The notes beneath the pieces were generated by a model. It saw only the letters and a list, made by a program, of their open reading frames with translations, made no database searches and was not told the DNA's origin. This document shows, piece by piece, positions 6,153-62,603 of a DNA stretch of 64,000 nucleotides (position 1 is the first letter of the stretch; every line of letters starts with the position of its first letter). The position numbers were made by a program, and so were the translations under genes. The stretch lies in assembly GCA_004524545.1 (NCBI GenBank), contig SDNX01000002.1, forward strand, positions 1 through 64,000, written 5' to 3'. The DNA comes from Promethearchaeota archaeon (GTDB lineage Archaea; Asgardarchaeota; Lokiarchaeia; Sigyniarchaeales; Promethearchaeaceae).

Positions 6153-6407
6153 ATGTCAACACAAGATGAGACCATAGTAGGGAAAAAAGGTGAAATACTT
6201 CCCAAAAAGGCGCTACGAGAATTATCTGGAATAACTCCTGGGGATAAAGTGATTATAGAAGCAAGTCCTGGTGTATTGACAGTAAAGAAAGTTTATTCAG
6301 TTGAAGAACTACTAAAAATGCCTAAAATCGCTCATGGAACTCCTGACGAATTAGAACAGGAAATCAATGAAGAGGGTAAGAAACATGAAGAATTGGTGGC
6401 TAAATGA
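6153..6407 (+). CDS. AbrB/SpoVT-fold antitoxin-like protein
   Basis: GKKGEILPKKALRELSGITPGDKVIIEASPGVLTVKK; overlaps PIN gene by ATGAG. Confidence 0.85.
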   Translation: MSTQDETIVGKKGEILPKKALRELSGITPGDKVIIEASPGVLTVKKVYSVEELLKMPKIAHGTPDELEQEINEEGKKHEELVAK

Positions 6408-6913
6408 GTTCCACTATCCAAAAAATTGTGTTAGATACCACTTATATTCTACCATTATATGGTATTGAAGTGGACGGGTTGAAGGATCTTGAAAAAAACC
6501 TAATCTCATTATTAAATGGCAACAATAGTAAAATTTCCTTATACATTCCATCAGTTACGATGCTGGAAGCATTATATAAGTTGATCAGAGAATTCAAGTT
6601 ACAAGACGATAAGAATATTTTAAATCGTTATCCGATGGCAACACGATCTATTGTGGAAAATCCCGTTCTTGTAATTGTCAATCCTCTTTTACACCCAGAG
6701 ATTAGTAACATTGCGCTGAATATCCGATCTGAAGGGCATACTGATCTATTTGATTGCTTAATTGCAGGTACTGCGATTTTTCACAAAGCAATATTGGTAA
6801 CCCAAGATAACGAATTGGAGCGGATCATTAGGAACATTCCTCAATATTATAATCAACAGATTTTAGACTGGAAGAAATTTATGCAACATCCTTCTTTTCA
6901 AAAACTTGAATAA
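6404..6913 (+). CDS. PIN-domain toxin (VapC-like)
   Basis: VLDTTYILPLYG... SEGHTDLFDCLIAGTAIFHKAILVTQDNELERI acidic PIN motifs. Confidence 0.85.
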   Translation: MSSTIQKIVLDTTYILPLYGIEVDGLKDLEKNLISLLNGNNSKISLYIPSVTMLEALYKLIREFKLQDDKNILNRYPMATRSIVENPVLVIVNPLLHPEISNIALNIRSEGHTDLFDCLIAGTAIFHKAILVTQDNELERIIRNIPQYYNQQILDWKKFMQHPSFQKLE

Positions 6914-6942
6914 TACAACACCCAATGAATATGTTTATTCTC

Positions 6943-7023
6943 GGTATTCCGGTGTAGTATATCCTTGAATTAATCGATGCTTACGATTTAATTAAAGGTA
7001 AAGCTTCGGCTAAAAAGAAATAA
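6943..7023 (+). pseudogene. Decayed copy of the 3' end of the Fe-S gene at 5968-6051
   Basis: ggtattccggtgtag...cttgaattaatcgatgcttacgatttaattaaaggtaaagc...aaaaagaaataa; GIPV*YILELIDAYDLIKGKASAKKK vs GIPVYGILELIDTYDLIKGAKATPKKK. Confidence 0.88.
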
Positions 7024-7041
7024 AAAATATTCATTTCTCTA

Positions 7042-7352
7042 TCAATTTTTTGCATTTTCTAATTCATCAATAAAGTTATCAGGATAATATTCTTCCCAGT
7101 CGGACTCCTTGATAATCTCGTTGTAAATTTTTCTTGCCAATCCGGTAGGTCATTCACAAGATCCAGAAAGGATTTTTTATAATCTTCGCTATAAAGGAGT
7201 TCCCATGTATACAAAGGTTCAAAAAATTTCGCACTTGGATTCTGTTTGAAAATATAAGGTAACATTTTGGGAAGGGTATCAAATACAGCCAATGGATATT
7301 CTCCAAAATTCTCAAAATAACTCCAAACCGATTGTGGATAAGGGAATTCCAT
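7042..7352 (-). pseudogene. Hypothetical protein, probably frameshifted near C-terminus
   Basis: ORF 7352-7059 loses a natural-looking frame at the aaaaattt tract; a +1 correction gives ...DLPDWQEKFYNEIIKESDWEEYYPDNFIDELENAKN* ending at 7042. Confidence 0.6.
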
Positions 7353-7444
7353 AGTTTCGACGCTCTCTATTTAATTCCTCCAATGTTAGAACAATTGTTT
7401 CTGCACACCACAGATTTTTTTATTCCAATTTCATTAGCCATTAT

Positions 7445-7630
7445 ATGGCATCCGCAAAGGAAACTGTTGAATCTATCCTAAAATCTCTTCCAGATAATGC
7501 TACGTATGAAGATATTATGTATGAAATCTATGTTCGATGCAATATTGAAAAAGGTTTAGAAGACATTGAAAAGGGAAACGTTGTTTCTGAAGAAGAGATG
7601 AACAAGTGGTTGCAGAAATGGTTGAAGTAG
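7445..7630 (+). CDS. Small antitoxin-like protein, no adjacent toxin
   Basis: 61-aa ORF MASAKETVESILKSLPDNATYEDIMYEIYVRCNIEKGLEDIEKGNVVSEEEMNKWLQKWLK; resembles small prokaryotic antitoxins. Confidence 0.6.
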   Translation: MASAKETVESILKSLPDNATYEDIMYEIYVRCNIEKGLEDIEKGNVVSEEEMNKWLQKWLK

Positions 7631-7664
7631 AATGGTCAGATTGTGACATTTTAAGTTGTTTTAT

Positions 7665-48300: not shown

Positions 48301-49403
48301 AATATGATCTCGATATAAGCAGTACGGTATTTGGAAGCACTGGAACCTACATCTTAAGAATTCAAGGAGAAAAAGAAGATTATACGACACCTTCGGTTGA
48401 AATTTCGTTAAGAATTCGTGATATTCATACTGAATTGAATGGGACGATATTTTTGCAAAATTCCTACGACATCTATGTAACAACAAGTCATAATTATTTG
48501 TTTGAATACACCTCAAGTGGAAATGGAATTTCAAATGCAGACACCTTGGATTGGGAACTGCAAAACAATGCGAATCCCTTAGATTATACAAGTGGTATTT
48601 TAGTCGAAACTTCAACAGCGGGAGTATATGAACTAGTTGGTTTTGATACGACTTCGTTAGAAGTAGGCTCCTATAGTCTGGTCATTCACATTGGAGCAAA
48701 TAACTATATTGAACGTCAATCTGCAATTAATTTGGATGTTCTGCAAATACCTATTGAATTGGGAACCGATATTACTGGTAGAGTTTTTACTGCTCCAAAA
48801 GGAGAAATTATCAATATTTCCATTCAACTTAATGATCCGGTATACAATACAGTCATCACAGGCGCTAATGTTACCATAACTTATGATGGAAATACCTATG
48901 CTATGCTAGAAATTGGTACAACCGGAGAATATTATCATACAGTGAATACGGATGCATATAAAACTCTAGCAATGGATAAGATCTTTGAAGCACAAATTAT
49001 CATCTTCATGAATGAGAATTATACGATCGATGATATTCCAGTAACAATTCAAATTCGACCACCATTAGGCCCACTCAACATTCCTTTAATTTATTGGTTA
49101 ATTGGTGGAGGCGTCGCTGTGATCGCTCTTGGTGTGTTTGGAACTGTCAAAGGAATACAATATGCACGAATCCCATGGATAGTAAAACAGATTACCTCAA
49201 CCAGGAAGGGAATCAAAAAGAAAACACGATTTACTCCGGCTAAAATAACCCGCTCATTAGATGAAATTATTGGGGATGATGCAGAAGGAGCATTTTCAAT
49301 ACTTGGCTTATCACTTAAAGGAAAAAAGCCAGGGAAAGGAGAAGGAAAATCGAAGGGACCAGAAACGTATAAAGATCTAGAAGATATGGGAGGTAATCAA
49401 TAA
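45309..49403 (+). CDS. Large surface protein: signal peptide, DUF2341-like and PA14-like N-terminus, multiple Ig/MG-like domains, C-terminal TM and basic cytosolic tail
   Basis: 1364 aa; WWNESYTHRLLVTI...EYYIYYSDDPG; VYSDSFGVASFYW-type repeats; TM YWLIGGGVAVIALGVFGTVKGI. Confidence 0.8.
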   Translation: MIRKQYASSALILMFFVQIVFVSVSLSPYINSSTNDIGSDGNTTIDTPLALPFASDTADTWWNESYTHRLLVTIQEPNINQRANEPVEVYTEFEDGTHLIDSTRLVKYTSGSWTPISFQLSNVTDDSTYIQSFTITFQITINLNGTQEYYIYYSDDPGISAYSPISSLVTNFDGTTAYIDNGHYEIEFAEGAAIYYFEYQGHNYHTENSFGALSKVVQPGETTYSTDSRGFIRDWLLVGPFNEPWNSWNSFASISNTAHLDLTKDYVAGDYATGGNATTGLDESKQWVEHHDADYRINLGDIYPGTEDWVTAYAMLYIYTSVDLENIYLKVAADDGIGVIMDHKWPRLLYDHTPTSLGSADRYVSSAFNMSQGWHSFIVFCEEAGGNWEFTLRFSTDATLRSLTDSTNAITDLTISLTAQTEISNINEIVSGPVYSQYELNWTDSQDMTFYDTYTFYENLNMWKCERTFHWDEYHVYPDNSSFSALNTYYDATNFDEFLYDNKRTFGLTNAITAQDYTLVRDFNGGNSLTTLGIFLTDIKNGSQYISLDEVNWTTIYEAGTPSTINIVPGNETNLNNNEGSNPDSYTITMTFWEFIDDNVGIVNDYAAALTYVEGIYNGLMNPVDVSFGTVEDLFFNLDITCLDHDSSNAPGINVTLINATDPGVWDNPGSNSAITDENGYVFFERLKEADYLINVTYENFGKVLDLKTVAFGILDSSQSLVIDELGLTRLDLSLQSESSTPEPIIGASVSFYSNISGTTDLIGDVYSDSFGVASFYWENKSESVMNYTFEVTFLGAIRQINVDGIFEDNYTTPLESYTNLDVNVSVNPFNTFLIMESGLTLDMYTWGDIFDITVYYYYTLDAASNPITAATVTYTIPGFPAAKDISLAPNGTQGYYTATINTQSIGLPADTPLNIYVSATRPGYTPMTNTTLLTLQPVPLVILASETSKDVTWGDDITLSVQLNDTYYEQLITDGIVSYSVANNPLIFGTLTPNGSQYDLDISSTVFGSTGTYILRIQGEKEDYTTPSVEISLRIRDIHTELNGTIFLQNSYDIYVTTSHNYLFEYTSSGNGISNADTLDWELQNNANPLDYTSGILVETSTAGVYELVGFDTTSLEVGSYSLVIHIGANNYIERQSAINLDVLQIPIELGTDITGRVFTAPKGEIINISIQLNDPVYNTVITGANVTITYDGNTYAMLEIGTTGEYYHTVNTDAYKTLAMDKIFEAQIIIFMNENYTIDDIPVTIQIRPPLGPLNIPLIYWLIGGGVAVIALGVFGTVKGIQYARIPWIVKQITSTRKGIKKKTRFTPAKITRSLDEIIGDDAEGAFSILGLSLKGKKPGKGEGKSKGPETYKDLEDMGGNQ

Positions 49404-50482
49404 TGCCTATTGGATTAGTTTTAATGCGCTGGGACGAAAGAATCGGTGCGGAAACTCTCGCAAAATATCCTGAAGAATTACTAGTTACGGATAAAACGTT
49501 GATGCAAGTGTATAGTACCCACGAATACAACCAGGAAGCTGGAATGATATCGCTTATGGCTGGAGCGTCCACTATTGCAAGTTATTTTAGTGGACCTGAC
49601 CATAGTCTATATGTAATTCTTGTGTTAACAGTCGATGAAGACCCAGATACATTTGAGGACGGCTTAGCAGATGTTTGTAGATTAGTTGTACAAAACATGG
49701 AAGGAGAAGCTTATCGTCAAATTCTTCCATCTTTGTTCCAACGAGTGTCCATCTATCCTAAACTCGATGAAGAACAACGGTTAATGATGTTGTATTTCGA
49801 TGAAACAAAACGAGTAGTAATTCAACGATTGCGAGAGGAAGGCTCTGTTGCTCGCTCCGAAGTGGCTGTTTGGCTGAAAGATTTGTATCGCTCAGGATTC
49901 GTTGATCTTGAAAGTGTGGTATCTAGTTTCGTAAAAGCGGGAATTGTAAAACAGATCTCGGTCAAGCAATTAGCTGTGGAAACTTTGTTTCTGTGTGGAG
50001 ACATAATGATCTACCGACAACCTGTAGTGAATATAATCAAAAATCCGATTCCTCGTGGATTACCTGCTGAATTAGAAGAAGATTACATGACTGAATGTAA
50101 AACTCTCTTTGCATCATATGAGCCTAACGATGAAGACAATTTTGCAATGGTAGATACACTCCTCGATCCTCAAACCTACGAAGCAATGAGATTAATGCGA
50201 CAAGCCGTTGTTACCCGAGATGATCTCGAGAAACTTCAGAAAAAAGGCGTAGAGGATTTAGAAATGGTCTTAAAGCGATTATGGGATGCAAATTTCCTTG
50301 CTGTTATGCAAGATCCAGCTGGTAATGAGTATTATGCGTTAAAATCCGATATTTGCATTAAAAAAGTGTTCCCTGAATACATTCTGAATGCAATCCGACA
50401 AGACTACAATGATAAAGTGAAGAATGAAATGGTCTTGATGGAACATCTCGCAATTCTGGAAGATACCTATAAAATTAGATAA
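49403..50482 (+). CDS. Longin-like N-domain + winged-helix-like protein
   Basis: IGLVLMRWDERIGAETLAKYPEELL...; paralogue of 58398-59441; TAATG overlap with surface protein. Confidence 0.65.
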   Translation: MPIGLVLMRWDERIGAETLAKYPEELLVTDKTLMQVYSTHEYNQEAGMISLMAGASTIASYFSGPDHSLYVILVLTVDEDPDTFEDGLADVCRLVVQNMEGEAYRQILPSLFQRVSIYPKLDEEQRLMMLYFDETKRVVIQRLREEGSVARSEVAVWLKDLYRSGFVDLESVVSSFVKAGIVKQISVKQLAVETLFLCGDIMIYRQPVVNIIKNPIPRGLPAELEEDYMTECKTLFASYEPNDEDNFAMVDTLLDPQTYEAMRLMRQAVVTRDDLEKLQKKGVEDLEMVLKRLWDANFLAVMQDPAGNEYYALKSDICIKKVFPEYILNAIRQDYNDKVKNEMVLMEHLAILEDTYKIR

Positions 50483-54083: not shown

Positions 54084-55799
54084 ATGTTGCGGCAAGTGTT
54101 TTTGTTAAAAGATAAAAGAATCATCTACCGGCGAAGTTTTGCGCTAGCGTACAATCAAGAGCAGTTTGATCAAGTTTTGGAGAAAATTAATGAATTTATC
54201 GTCCAACCTGCACAAAACCAGTTATTCCACAGACCTATCAATAATTTTCAAATAGTGTTTGGGCAATTAGGAGATTTATTTTATATTTTTGTGGTTGATA
54301 CTGGAGACCCTTATAAAACTGTACAAGAGGAAATTCAAACATTATCTAATACTTTATCTGGTAGTGGATTAAATATAACGGATCTATTGGCAGATTTAGA
54401 AAATAAACGAGAACTTGATGCTCTCATAGAAGAAATTCATTATTCTCTTCACCCAAAAATTGTCTTGATCGGCCCCCACGGAAGTGGAAAGACAACCTTA
54501 GCAGAGCGTTTATCGAATAAAGGAGAAATCATAAGGGATATTAGCGAATTCGCCAAAGTTTACAAAATTCAGTTAGGTCAACTTAAATTTGATTTATGGG
54601 ATTTTGTCTTAGATGATGATTTTAGCCCGTTATGGGGAAACTACATTCGTGGATCCGATTTGGTTGTTTTTATTTACACCTCCACTGAGAAAACCCATAG
54701 GAGGATTGAAAATTTCATCAATTTATTTAAACGTGAAGTGCCTTTCAAAAGAAAATTCTTCCTTTTATCTCATTCTAAAGATGCGGACGAGTCTGTTATT
54801 GCTAAATTCAATGAAACCTATGCTGCAGAATTAGACACGGATGCATTGAAGTATGATATTATGGACGAAGATTCGGTTGCTGAAGTGAAAGATTTATTGA
54901 TGATACACTTGGAATTGAAACGTCCACTCCCACCTCGTTTCAAGGATTTAATCCTAGAAAGTAATGCTGCAATTGAAAAGAATGACTTTCCGAAAGCAAT
55001 CAAAATTATTGAGCAAATGATAATGATTGCTGAGGAACACCAAGAACTGGAATATTTAGCGTTATTCCGCAAAAAGATCGCAGAATTAAAAGGTGAGCCT
55101 TTGGACGAAAAGCCTCTCGAAGAAATTAAAACTGGAAAAAAATTCACTGCGCCTCAAAAATTAGCATTCAAAGATGTAATTACAGTGAAATCCTTGGATG
55201 GTTCGACAACACATAAAGCAGGACAAAAAATCTCAGTTCCTACTATTACTTCCTTAACAGAAGATCCTTACCAATCCACCACAAAACGAGAAACTTCAAG
55301 GTATGCCCGTGAAGGAAAATTTACGGGGGTCAAGGACAGAAAATTAACTTTTGAACGCTCTCCCTTAATAAAAAATGAAATTGTGGGACTCAAACCTAAA
55401 GTGATAGAAAAAGAAGAGGAAATTGAAAAGCTAGCAGAGGAACCAAAAAAAGAGGATAAATATGTTCAGCTAGAGGAGAAAAAGCACAAAGAAAAGCAAT
55501 CATTTCTTCACGATGCATTTACTCATTCTAGACCACTTCCTATTACTGAGCCATTACCGATTCCAAAGGATGAAGTTGGAAGTCCAGCTGAAGAAAGGTT
55601 ATTGTATGAATCGGAATTGCTCCACAAAACCATTTTAGCACTAGGTAGAAATTTGAGTTTAGAGAATTGTCGTACTTTTATCCAACAAATTCAACTAAAA
55701 TTGGGAAAGGATTTATTGGATGAAAAAGATATTGCTAACGCTGCCCAGTTATATGTAAAAAAATTGGAAGACCGGGAAAAATTCACAGAATCCACCTAA
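54084..55799 (+). CDS. Longin-like domain fused to divergent Arf/SRbeta-like GTPase domain and disordered tail
   Basis: N-terminal VFLLKDKRIIYRRSFALAYNQEQFDQVLEKINEF; P-loop GPHGSGKTT; LWDFVLDDDF; LSHSKDAD. Confidence 0.75.
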   Translation: MLRQVFLLKDKRIIYRRSFALAYNQEQFDQVLEKINEFIVQPAQNQLFHRPINNFQIVFGQLGDLFYIFVVDTGDPYKTVQEEIQTLSNTLSGSGLNITDLLADLENKRELDALIEEIHYSLHPKIVLIGPHGSGKTTLAERLSNKGEIIRDISEFAKVYKIQLGQLKFDLWDFVLDDDFSPLWGNYIRGSDLVVFIYTSTEKTHRRIENFINLFKREVPFKRKFFLLSHSKDADESVIAKFNETYAAELDTDALKYDIMDEDSVAEVKDLLMIHLELKRPLPPRFKDLILESNAAIEKNDFPKAIKIIEQMIMIAEEHQELEYLALFRKKIAELKGEPLDEKPLEEIKTGKKFTAPQKLAFKDVITVKSLDGSTTHKAGQKISVPTITSLTEDPYQSTTKRETSRYAREGKFTGVKDRKLTFERSPLIKNEIVGLKPKVIEKEEEIEKLAEEPKKEDKYVQLEEKKHKEKQSFLHDAFTHSRPLPITEPLPIPKDEVGSPAEERLLYESELLHKTILALGRNLSLENCRTFIQQIQLKLGKDLLDEKDIANAAQLYVKKLEDREKFTEST

Positions 55800-58397: not shown

Positions 58398-59441
58398 TTG
58401 AAATTATCACTTTTTAAATGGGACCATCAATTAGGACCGGAACCCCTTATTCAGTACCCTCCTGATCCTCAGTCACTATTTCCAAAGAAAGAGGTTTTAT
58501 TACGAATTTGGTCAATACATGAGTTGAACAGTGAACCGATAGTCAGTTTTGCACAAGAACCTCTAAATTATTTGTCAATAATGCATAAAAATTTGAACGA
58601 ATTTTATTTTGCACTGTTAGAATTAGATATTCAAGAAGATCCCAGCAAATATAAAGATATTTTTCTAAACATGTCTTCTACTTTATTCAAATCAATCGGA
58701 ACAAACAATTTCACGCTTATTCTTTCTGAAACCTACTCGATGATTGATGAGTATTCCAAACTTAATCAAGATCAATTGTATTTTAATCTCTATAGAGATA
58801 GAAATAAGGTTAATATACTGAATTCTTTAAGAAAAGGCGTTGTTAGCAAAAATAAACTATGTGAAACTTTACGAACGCATTATGGAATCGCGGAAACCAA
58901 TTTTAATATCTTAATCACACCATTTCAACATCTTGGTTTAATTATGGAAAACTCAATTCATGGATGCAGTAATTTTTATCTTATAAAAGATGTATATGGT
59001 GCTAGAATTCCTCCAGATGCATTATATCATGAACTTTTAAAAAGTTCAGACGAAATGGACAAAAAATACATTGGCTATTTGACCGATTTTTTTACTCATT
59101 ACCGTCCTGAAAATGATGATGATGACACTTTGCTTCAAATCTCAAAATTGCTCAGTGATACTCAAATCTACAACAGTTTACGAGTTTTATATGAAAATAA
59201 ATTGAAGAGAAATCGCTTTATAGATATGATTTCTCAAGATGTACAGTCCTACACAAAATTACGTCAGCTCAAACTCATCATAGAAATTGAAGATTTTCTC
59301 TATCCACTTTCTGAGATTCATTTCTATACATTTACCCCATTTTATCTTATTCGCAATCTTGGTAAACGATTCCAAAAGAATGATATATCTACCGAGGAAT
59401 TATTTTATCATATTAGACTTCTACAATCCATGAAGGAGTAA
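58398..59441 (+). CDS. Longin-like N-domain + winged-helix-like protein (paralogue of 49403-50482)
   Basis: LSLFKWDHQLGPEPLIQYPPDPQSL... aligns with LVLMRWDERIGAETLAKYPEELL.... Confidence 0.65.
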   Translation: MKLSLFKWDHQLGPEPLIQYPPDPQSLFPKKEVLLRIWSIHELNSEPIVSFAQEPLNYLSIMHKNLNEFYFALLELDIQEDPSKYKDIFLNMSSTLFKSIGTNNFTLILSETYSMIDEYSKLNQDQLYFNLYRDRNKVNILNSLRKGVVSKNKLCETLRTHYGIAETNFNILITPFQHLGLIMENSIHGCSNFYLIKDVYGARIPPDALYHELLKSSDEMDKKYIGYLTDFFTHYRPENDDDDTLLQISKLLSDTQIYNSLRVLYENKLKRNRFIDMISQDVQSYTKLRQLKLIIEIEDFLYPLSEIHFYTFTPFYLIRNLGKRFQKNDISTEELFYHIRLLQSMKE

Positions 59442-60029: not shown

Positions 60030-60779
60030 ATGAAAACTCCTAGTATAATCCATGCATCGATAAATGAAATCCCATTAGTTATTCCAGAATCAATGATTGT
60101 GTTTGCAGGACATCCAGATGATGAACTAATATCGGTTGGAGGAACCATATTAAAATATGCAGCATTAGGAACTAAGGTAACTGCAGTGGTGGCAACGAGT
60201 GGATTAGGTGGATACGCAAAACCGGATGAGAAAAAGAAAATAGCGGAAACTCGTGCGAAAGAATTTGAACTGGTTTCAAAATATCTGAATTGTGACTTCA
60301 TTGAGTTAAACTATAAGGAAATTAATGTTACAAGACCAATTGTATCAAAATTCACCAACCTTATTCGCAAACACAAACCACAAGTGATATTCATGCCTCA
60401 TCCTTCAGACATTCATCGAACGCACAGAAAACTCGCAAAAGTAGTTCGTGAAGCAATTTACCATACCGCAACAGGTCGAGCTTATGGGGGGTTTGGAAAA
60501 GATTTCATGCCTTCCGCGGTATATTGCTATGAAAGTCCCTCATGCAAATTTCAGTATGTGGATGCTAATGTATTCGTTACCGTAGATATTTCTGATTTTT
60601 GGAATAAAAAAGTCGAGATTTTCAAAAAAGTATATGCATCTCAAGTAGAAGTATTGGCTCGCGTATTGGATTGGGCTCAAGATACAGCGACTCTTCGAGG
60701 TAATGAAGTAAATGGGGAATATGGAGAAGCATTCATACCATTGACTGAATACGTTCCGATGAGAATTTTGCTAGGTTAA
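60030..60779 (+). CDS. PIG-L/LmbE family deacetylase
   Basis: MIVFAGHPDDELISVGGTI; PHPSDIHRTHRKLAKVV. Confidence 0.92.
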   Translation: MKTPSIIHASINEIPLVIPESMIVFAGHPDDELISVGGTILKYAALGTKVTAVVATSGLGGYAKPDEKKKIAETRAKEFELVSKYLNCDFIELNYKEINVTRPIVSKFTNLIRKHKPQVIFMPHPSDIHRTHRKLAKVVREAIYHTATGRAYGGFGKDFMPSAVYCYESPSCKFQYVDANVFVTVDISDFWNKKVEIFKKVYASQVEVLARVLDWAQDTATLRGNEVNGEYGEAFIPLTEYVPMRILLG

Positions 60780-60805
60780 TGAACCGTAAAGGATGTAAAC
60801 AATAT

Positions 60806-61912
60806 ATGTCAAACATTGTCTCTGTAGTTCTGGATATTGGAGAGTTTTCTTGCAAAATTGGATACGCAGCAGAAAATGAACCCAGAACGACGTTTTATTC
60901 AATAGTAGGAGAACCTAAATATCAAGATATAGAAATGGGGGGAAGTAAACAGTACTACATTGGTAATGAGGTTGCTAGCTCAATTGGATTGTATAAAATA
61001 CATCACCCTATTAAACTTGGAAGGATAGAAGATTGGGATTTCTTCGAGAGACTCTTGGATTATGTATTTTACACCTTAAGAATTGAACCTTCTTCAGTCA
61101 ATGTTCTCTATACTCATCACCCTTTACTCTCTAAAGACGAGAAAAAACACCTTTTTCAATTGTTTTTTGACAAATATCAAGTAATGGGATTTTACCCAAT
61201 ATTAGACTCACTACTTACAATGTATTCGGGAGGATTCCAAACCGGATTAGTAATCGAAATGGGAGCTAGTTCAATTAGAATTGTCCCGATTTACAAGGGA
61301 TACATGATCTCTCATGCAATAGAAGTAATTCAAATGGGAGGGACTGTTTTAGATAATTTTATGTTTGACCAATTGCAGAACGCAGGATTCTCAACAGACT
61401 CCTCTGTACGTCGTGAAATAGGCCGAGTTCTTAAGGAACGTTCGTGTTTTGTCTCATTAGACTTCAACGAAGATAATAAGCATGTAAAAAAAAAGGAATT
61501 CCGTTTACCCGATGGGGATATGATAGAATTAGGATCAGAGAGATTTATGGTCCCGGAACTTTTGTTTAAACCGGAATTATTTAATTTAGAAGAAAAAGCC
61601 CTCCATACTGCGGTTTTGGATGTAGTAAATAATTGTGATATGGATACGCGCACAGAACTTTTAGAAAATATTTTTCTTTCAGGAGGATCTTCGGTTATTC
61701 CTCAGTTAGAACTTAGACTACAAAATGAGCTAGAAGTTGGACTAGCTCAAAGAGGAATCGATATGAGAACTCCTCGAATAATTGCCCCAAAACAAAGATT
61801 TTTTTCTTGCTGGATTGGTGGTTCAATCTTAGCAAGTTTACCGGGATTTCAAAGTTCTTGGGTTACTCGACCTCAATACTATAAAGGTGAGATCCCAGAG
61901 GATTTATTATGA
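60806..61912 (+). CDS. Actin-related protein (divergent, Asgard-type)
   Basis: VVLDIGEFSCKIGYAAENEPR; TGLVIEMGASSIRIVPIYKGYMISHAI; FLSGGSSVIPQLELRLQNEL; IIAPKQRFFSCWIGGSILASLPGFQSSWVTRPQY. Confidence 0.93.
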   Translation: MSNIVSVVLDIGEFSCKIGYAAENEPRTTFYSIVGEPKYQDIEMGGSKQYYIGNEVASSIGLYKIHHPIKLGRIEDWDFFERLLDYVFYTLRIEPSSVNVLYTHHPLLSKDEKKHLFQLFFDKYQVMGFYPILDSLLTMYSGGFQTGLVIEMGASSIRIVPIYKGYMISHAIEVIQMGGTVLDNFMFDQLQNAGFSTDSSVRREIGRVLKERSCFVSLDFNEDNKHVKKKEFRLPDGDMIELGSERFMVPELLFKPELFNLEEKALHTAVLDVVNNCDMDTRTELLENIFLSGGSSVIPQLELRLQNELEVGLAQRGIDMRTPRIIAPKQRFFSCWIGGSILASLPGFQSSWVTRPQYYKGEIPEDLL

Positions 61913-61928: not shown

Positions 61929-62603
61929 TTAATCACTATACACAACGTATTTTAATTCCTTTCCATCCCGATCATAGAGTTTTATATTCTCTGGTTTATC
62001 ATAGGGATAAGCTAATAACATAGTAAAACGTCTTTTCCTCATTACTGCATTAAATACTTCGTTTCGCTCCAAATCTCCATCGGGACGTGAGATGAAAGTA
62101 CCCTCATATGAAAAGTCAAATGGTAAGGAACACATAGACTGGAAATTCACATAGTTAATTCTATTACCTGGTTCTGCACATTTAATAGCCGGAATGATTA
62201 ATTCTGAAACCTTTCCTTTATCTACGGATAATAATCCTTGAACCTTTTGGGGATGATACCTTTTACTCATTTCGATTAATCCATTAAAGCAAGATTCGGT
62301 AAAAGGAATTACGCGATTTAAAATACTCTCAATTACAAGAAAAATTTCATTTAATACATCCACAACAGCGAAAGGTTCCTTCTCATTCCACTCTCTAAGG
62401 TGCGATAAAATAGTGGTTAGTTTAAAGGTTCTCCCATTATCTTTAACTAATTTTACTTTTGGAGCATTAGGATACCTTTTAAAGTTGACAGAGATATACA
62501 CTTCCTTGGTTAGGGGGATATGCATCAAATACTCTCGATTTTTATAATTGGTTGCTTCAGGATATTTTTGCTTTATCGTTTGTGCAATTTCCGCAAGAAT
62601 CAT
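61929..62603 (-). CDS. Candidate UBC/RWD-like domain fused to JAB/MPN-like domain lacking JAMM zinc ligands
   Basis: N-part VYISVNFKRYPNAPKVKLVKDN...REWNEKEPFAVVDVLNEI; C-part FNGLIEMSKRYHPQKVQGLLSVDKGKVSELIIPA...YEGTFISRPDGDLERNE...FTMLLAYPYDKPENIKLYDRDGKELKY. Confidence 0.6.
   Translation of the reverse strand: MILAEIAQTIKQKYPEATNYKNREYLMHIPLTKEVYISVNFKRYPNAPKVKLVKDNGRTFKLTTILSHLREWNEKEPFAVVDVLNEIFLVIESILNRVIPFTESCFNGLIEMSKRYHPQKVQGLLSVDKGKVSELIIPAIKCAEPGNRINYVNFQSMCSLPFDFSYEGTFISRPDGDLERNEVFNAVMRKRRFTMLLAYPYDKPENIKLYDRDGKELKYVVYSD

Follow-up and report, generated by a model that had tools for sequence, protein, structure and literature searches.

The closest described counterparts of the protein reported here belong to the JAMM/MPN superfamily. 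In archaea, AfJAMM (AF2198, PDB 1oi0/1r5x) is an intact, stand-alone JAMM protein, and Caldiarchaeum and Asgard archaea carry Rpn11-like JAMM proteins of the same superfamily (CsRpn11, from a ubiquitin operon). Among eukaryotic proteins, Rpn8, CSN6, eIF3f and Abraxas/ABRO1 have the JAMM/MPN fold without its metal site, and such MPN- subunits scaffold and activate an MPN+ partner (PMC7692841, PMC6043591), while BRE/BRCC45 of BRISC and BRCA1-A contributes UEV/RWD domains that act beside MPN proteins. We analysed a 64,000-nucleotide stretch of a Lokiarchaeal genome (the window), which encodes a 224-aa protein whose C-terminal half aligns with AfJAMM over nearly its full length but lacks the E, H, H, S and D that AfJAMM shares with the intact members of the window protein's own family. 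AfJAMM also differs in having no RWD domain. CsRpn11-type proteins are active, likewise lack an RWD domain and fall in another subfamily (Pfam JAB, ubiquitin operon), of which the window's genome holds an intact copy. Compared with the eukaryotic MPN- subunits, the window protein appears to have arisen independently inside Lokiarchaeia, carries an N-terminal RWD-like domain and no C-terminal coiled coil, and has an MPN+ partner that is only hypothetical. BRE stands apart as a subunit of three domains, whereas the window family fuses a single RWD-like domain to JAMM; four family members match Pfam BRE below its cut-off. The component parts (JAMM, RWD and pseudo-DUB) are of known kinds, and a literature search of incomplete coverage found no paper on an Asgard RWD-JAMM fusion or on a dead archaeal JAMM.

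The gene occupies 61929-62603 on the minus strand, with an ATG start at 62603, a coding sequence of 61932-62603 and a stop codon at 61929-61931; the plus strand of the same interval has many stops and no open frame. The earlier note had described a 224-aa reading frame beside an actin-related gene, and both statements held: the motifs YPNAPKV, W72, GTFISRP, LERNE and YPYD are all present in the protein, and an actin-family gene lies at 60779-61912 on the plus strand (Pfam Actin, E 2e-81). The window derives from an assembly of 2.55 Mb that is 76% complete (contig 78). A sister species of the same genus (G001) retains an orthologue at 65-67% identity within a syntenic gene block, which rules out an artefact of assembly. 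A single-sequence protein search matched it in 62 of 99 genomes, and the frame is conserved across these Asgard relatives. This is a real gene and not a chance reading frame.

Further neighbours encode a PIG-L-type deacetylase and a pfkB kinase, and proximity to the actin and pfkB genes is found across the window's genus. We rejected a functional link to actin, since the actin gene is convergent, the adjacency is confined to the genus and a URO-D-type gene intervenes in the sister species; the actin neighbour is incidental. Elsewhere in the window, a gene at 54084-55799 on the plus strand encodes a 571-aa protein in which a Roc/Arf-like GTPase domain (Pfam Roc, 1.4e-8) follows a weak N-terminal clathrin-adaptor/longin-like match (Clat_adaptor_s, 0.008), possibly a longin-GTPase fusion. 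It is flanked by genes for a pair of paralogues, each about 350 aa long (49403-50482 and 58398-59441, both on the plus strand), the second of which has no match in Pfam.

Searches of Pfam and NCBIfam with the whole 224-aa protein returned no match, so its domains had to be identified through relatives and profiles. The full-length relatives, about 220 aa long, have one layout in common, an N-terminal domain with YPxxPKV and W followed by JAMM, and 33 of the 44 family members matched Pfam Prok-JAB when each was scanned singly. The earlier note had read the C-terminal half as following the archaeal JAB/MPN layout, and this was borne out by profile and structure alike. In hmmsearch, the family profile matched both AfJAMM entries across positions 100-219 (1oi0, E 2.2e-28; 1r5x, E 3.9e-28). 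An AlphaFold2 model of the whole protein, built from the 44-row family alignment, reached a mean pLDDT of 85.8 and a pTM of 0.78 with an uncertain loop at 140-160, and its top Foldseek match in the PDB was again AfJAMM (1oi0, E 4.6e-7; TM 0.81-0.86, normalised by target), followed by the MPN domains of Rpn11/Rpn8, CSN and eIF3. The C-terminal half (residues 99-224, 61932..62309, minus strand) thus belongs to the JAMM/MPN superfamily. Other Asgard lineages contain JAMM-only relatives of 124-142 aa (L031-L035), which suggests that the joining of RWD to JAMM was probably a derived step within Asgard archaea, and the window protein is a member of a Lokiarchaeia family of such fusions that has no existing name. 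A further RWD-JAMM fusion with an extra ubiquitin-type domain is encoded in the sister species (L049:5099-6556, minus strand), where an AN1 zinc finger, TPR and RWD-like segments and an intact JAMM (HSH) are combined in 486 aa.

We then compared the catalytic columns of the 44 aligned members. The earlier note had proposed that GTFISRP stands where an active enzyme has GTVHSHP, with the upstream Glu and the Ser and Asp also lost, and had suggested surveying Asgard orthologues for a retained HxH..D; the columns align exactly with those of intact orthologues, and the survey separated the family cleanly. The full JAMM set (E, H, H, S, D) is retained by 33 members, whereas the other 11 have K, I, R, N and a gap at these five positions, identically in every one including the window protein, with no intermediates between the two sets. 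In the window protein, K120 (62244..62246) replaces a glutamate that is Glu in 33 of 33 intact members and Lys in 11 of 11 dead ones; I171-S172-R173 (62085..62093) replaces H-S-H, removing both zinc-ligand histidines; and N181 (62061..62063) replaces the JAMM serine, with the column of the next zinc-ligand Asp deleted (all on the minus strand). The active JAMM/MPN+ set E...HxH...S-x-x-D is consequently absent from the window protein and from all ten other aligned dead-clade members. An MPN fold, loss of the metal ligands and a conserved gene, the features by which MPN- pseudo-DUBs are recognised, are found together in the window protein. Judged from the alignment, it is a descendant of a JAMM enzyme of the ubiquitin-removing type in which every catalytic residue has been lost.

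In a maximum-likelihood tree, all 12 dead proteins (the 11 above and the partial L012) form one clade with support of 100/100, nested within a 100/98 clade whose remaining members are intact. This nesting among intact members indicates that inactivation is ancient, most likely derived and happened once. A dead-clade motif scan of 85,488 species genomes recovered only 11 loci, all labelled Lokiarchaeota/Lokiarchaeia; the scan requires near-exact matches, and divergent dead-clade members may escape it. Pairwise dN/dS between close dead-clade members (Nei-Gojobori) was 0.08-0.21 in the dead JAMM half versus 0.20-0.50 in the RWD half. At positions 165-182, which span the old H-S-H and S, 12 of 18 residues never vary, making this one of the most conserved stretches of the protein; for positions 191-201, conservation reaches 93% within the dead clade compared with 71% in intact relatives. 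The replacement residues are invariant in the 11 proteins at identities down to 36%. The low dN/dS and the invariance within 165-182 show that the dead site is not drifting: the dead branch is under purifying selection, which acts most strongly on the JAMM half and near the old active site. A decaying or misannotated gene might be expected to have lost all its catalytic residues and to have a narrow distribution, as this one does; however, the frame is open in every genome, the origin is single, dN/dS lies well below 1 and the replacements do not vary. We rejected decay on the dN/dS and the invariant replacements, and regard such an explanation as extremely improbable.

The N-terminal half (residues 1-98, 62310..62603, minus strand; YPNAP at 44-48 and W72) had been described in the earlier note as a cysteine-free E2/RWD-like module. 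It contains no Cys and so cannot be an E2 enzyme. Modelled alone with AlphaFold2, it reached a mean pLDDT of 91.8 and an alpha-beta-beta-beta-beta-alpha order with a long C-terminal helix. A helix, then strands, then a long C-terminal helix is the order expected of RWD/UBC domains. Foldseek of the 100-aa N-half model against the PDB and BFVD listed no UBC/RWD structure, so the RWD assignment rests on sequence profiles. In hhalign, the N-half aligned with the second RWD repeat (repeat 2) of RWD-RING proteins from Asgard archaea at a probability of 98.7 (E 3.5e-16), and repeat 2 matched repeat 1 (92.6, 4.7e-7), which in turn matches Pfam UQ_con at about 1e-6 and solved E2 enzymes at E 1.7e-4; repeat 4 of the same proteins matches Pfam RWD at 8e-6. 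A combined profile of the N-half and repeat 2 scored 36.5 against repeat 1, compared with a maximum of 20.3 among 60 column-shuffled and 4 reversed decoys. This transitive chain supports placing the N-half in the UBC/RWD/UEV superfamily, so that the earlier description stood in its profile relationship and its lack of Cys, while a direct structural match to UBC/RWD did not emerge. The blank Foldseek result, and the lack of any Pfam domain in the N-half of the window protein, would also suit a novel alpha/beta domain that merely resembles RWD/UBC, making the E2-like reading wrong. We consider this quite unlikely given that the chain reaches bona fide UBC/RWD repeats clearly above the decoys, the YPxxP and W are conserved and the helix/strand order fits.

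The RWD-RING proteins themselves constitute an Asgard family of about 550-620 aa in which four UBC/RWD-like repeats in tandem precede a RING-like zinc finger at the C-terminus, a layout reminiscent of FANCL. The family was detected in 42 of 99 genomes at E 1e-30 (L064:4545-6194, plus strand; L087:9105-10958, minus strand, in G001; and L046, L063, L067, L069, L070 and L047), and its members are candidate E3 ligases.

Gene order outside the window's genus raised a different prospect. In nine Lokiarchaeia genomes of one other genus, the dead RWD-JAMM gene lies between hypE and hypD on the same strand (L072-L080, e.g. L072:8762-11647), with typical gaps of 67 bp to the preceding hypE and 19 bp to the following hypD. 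Sister genomes without the dead gene have hypE adjoining hypD or two small opposite-strand ORFs between them; such ORF pairs (99 and about 115 aa) fill the hypE/hypD intergenic site in other genomes. The close same-strand placement, together with sister genomes in which hypE and hypD are adjacent or two small genes apart, could indicate that the protein serves hydrogenase maturation as a helper of HypE/HypD and not a ubiquitin pathway. The arrangement does not extend to the window's genus, however, where the gene sits elsewhere: in the sister species hypD is on a different contig from the dead gene, and the window's own assembly (76% complete) yielded no hypD. A basal dead copy in G045 also has different downstream neighbours. 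We therefore rejected the hypE/hypD operon link as a general feature, real as it is in one genus, and judge a role in hydrogenase maturation very unlikely. Neither the actin nor the hyp neighbourhood by itself reveals function.

The window's own genome (G000) encodes a ubiquitin system. The earlier note had placed the protein in an Asgard ubiquitin-type pathway and looked to E1, E2 and ubiquitin genes elsewhere in the genome, and such genes exist: on contig 131, a ubiquitin-like protein, a ThiF-type E1, an E2 (L115:7459-7983) and an Rpn11-like JAMM with intact HSHP (L115:8006-8803) are encoded side by side. The next gene is a probable RING gene, encoding a protein whose C-terminus has a RING-like Cys/His cluster, seen by eye and not called by Pfam. 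The operon ubiquitin (L115:5752-6108, plus strand) ends in PASTAGI without Gly-Gly, and contig 24 holds a second ubiquitin-like match; the E1/E2 operon may work with a non-GG tail or require a processing step. The dead RWD-JAMM gene is unlinked to this cluster. The presence of ubiquitin, E1, E2 and an Rpn11-like JAMM in the same genome nevertheless means that there is a ubiquitin pathway in which the dead protein could act.

We also assessed possible partners. An active RWD-JAMM paralogue accompanies the dead protein in 4 of 12 genomes (G020, G045, G054 and G075) and is absent, at the thresholds used, from G039 (99% complete), G041 (100%) and G071 (98%), all of which have the dead copy; the four genomes with both invite comparison with MPN+/MPN- pairs, but we rejected the paralogue as an obligate partner on this co-occurrence. 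The four-RWD-RING protein was rejected likewise, having no match at E 1e-30 in G039 and G041 and being represented by a fragment in G071. Every genome checked encodes further JAMM-domain proteins, and the dead protein could possibly partner with one of them. In the sister species, two overlapping long homologous JAMM genes with helical C-terminal regions (L120:5040-6407 and 6392-7657, both on the plus strand) encode one protein with intact HSHP and a second that reads SSRL there, while in the counterpart pair of G039 (L121) both neighbours are intact. The L120 pair is possibly a second MPN+/MPN- pair in Lokiarchaeia; the window's genome, which is 76% complete, yielded no such pair.

Collectively, these data lead us to favour, as the probable reading, that the gene encodes a conserved pseudo-deubiquitinase, which would serve the Lokiarchaeal ubiquitin system as an adaptor or regulator without catalysis. 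The comparisons show descent from an ancestral Lokiarchaeia protein in which an RWD-like domain preceded an active metallo-isopeptidase domain of the AfJAMM type. On one branch, and most likely once, all five catalytic or zinc-ligand positions changed to fixed residues that do not bind metal, and this branch is retained by purifying selection. The dead protein would no longer cut and would instead work by binding: its JAMM fold would retain a surface for ubiquitin, a ubiquitin-like protein or an MPN partner, and the RWD half would supply a second protein- or ubiquitin-binding surface. In principle it would thereby resemble MPN- subunits such as Abraxas, CSN6 and Rpn8, although its origin is separate from theirs. 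Such a putative scaffold role is plausible: eukaryotic MPN- pseudo-DUBs stabilise, activate or scaffold MPN+ enzymes (PMC7692841), and Asgard ESCRT UEV domains have been found experimentally to bind ubiquitin (PMC9192718). The limited co-occurrence with the paralogue, the lack of linkage to the ubiquitin cluster and the blank Foldseek result for the N-half count against this reading.

The conservation of the dead site also invites a more specific explanation, in which it was recruited for a new small ligand or a carboxylate, for example the ubiquitin C-terminus, so that the protein would be a sensor or reader and not a passive scaffold; the invariant K and R would then form a new basic pocket that accepts a carboxylate or another anion. 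Basic K120 and R173 occupy the glutamate and zinc-histidine positions, R191-R192 are nearby in sequence, the replacements do not vary across the 11 proteins even at the lowest identity, and 165-182 and 191-201 are the most conserved stretches of the JAMM half; because a protein interface or fold packing could equally explain this conservation, we regard recruitment for a ligand as rather unlikely. A possible though doubtful elaboration of the pseudo-deubiquitinase reading is that K120 and R173 turned the metal site into a conserved basic pocket, used either to read the C-terminus of a ubiquitin-like protein or to activate a partner JAMM, which would make the protein an archaeal analogue of eukaryotic MPN+/MPN- logic, fused to RWD and independently evolved in Lokiarchaeia.

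Together, these findings suggest that the non-catalytic 'pseudo-enzymes' of the ubiquitin system arose in archaea too, here in a Lokiarchaeon, whose lineage is closely related to eukaryotes. They also indicate that Asgard archaea recombined RWD/E2-like domains both with deubiquitinases and, as in the related RWD-RING proteins, with a finger of RING-like type. With a strictly conserved dead JAMM, many intact relatives and intact paralogues in some of the same genomes, the family makes the origin of a pseudo-deubiquitinase directly testable in archaea.
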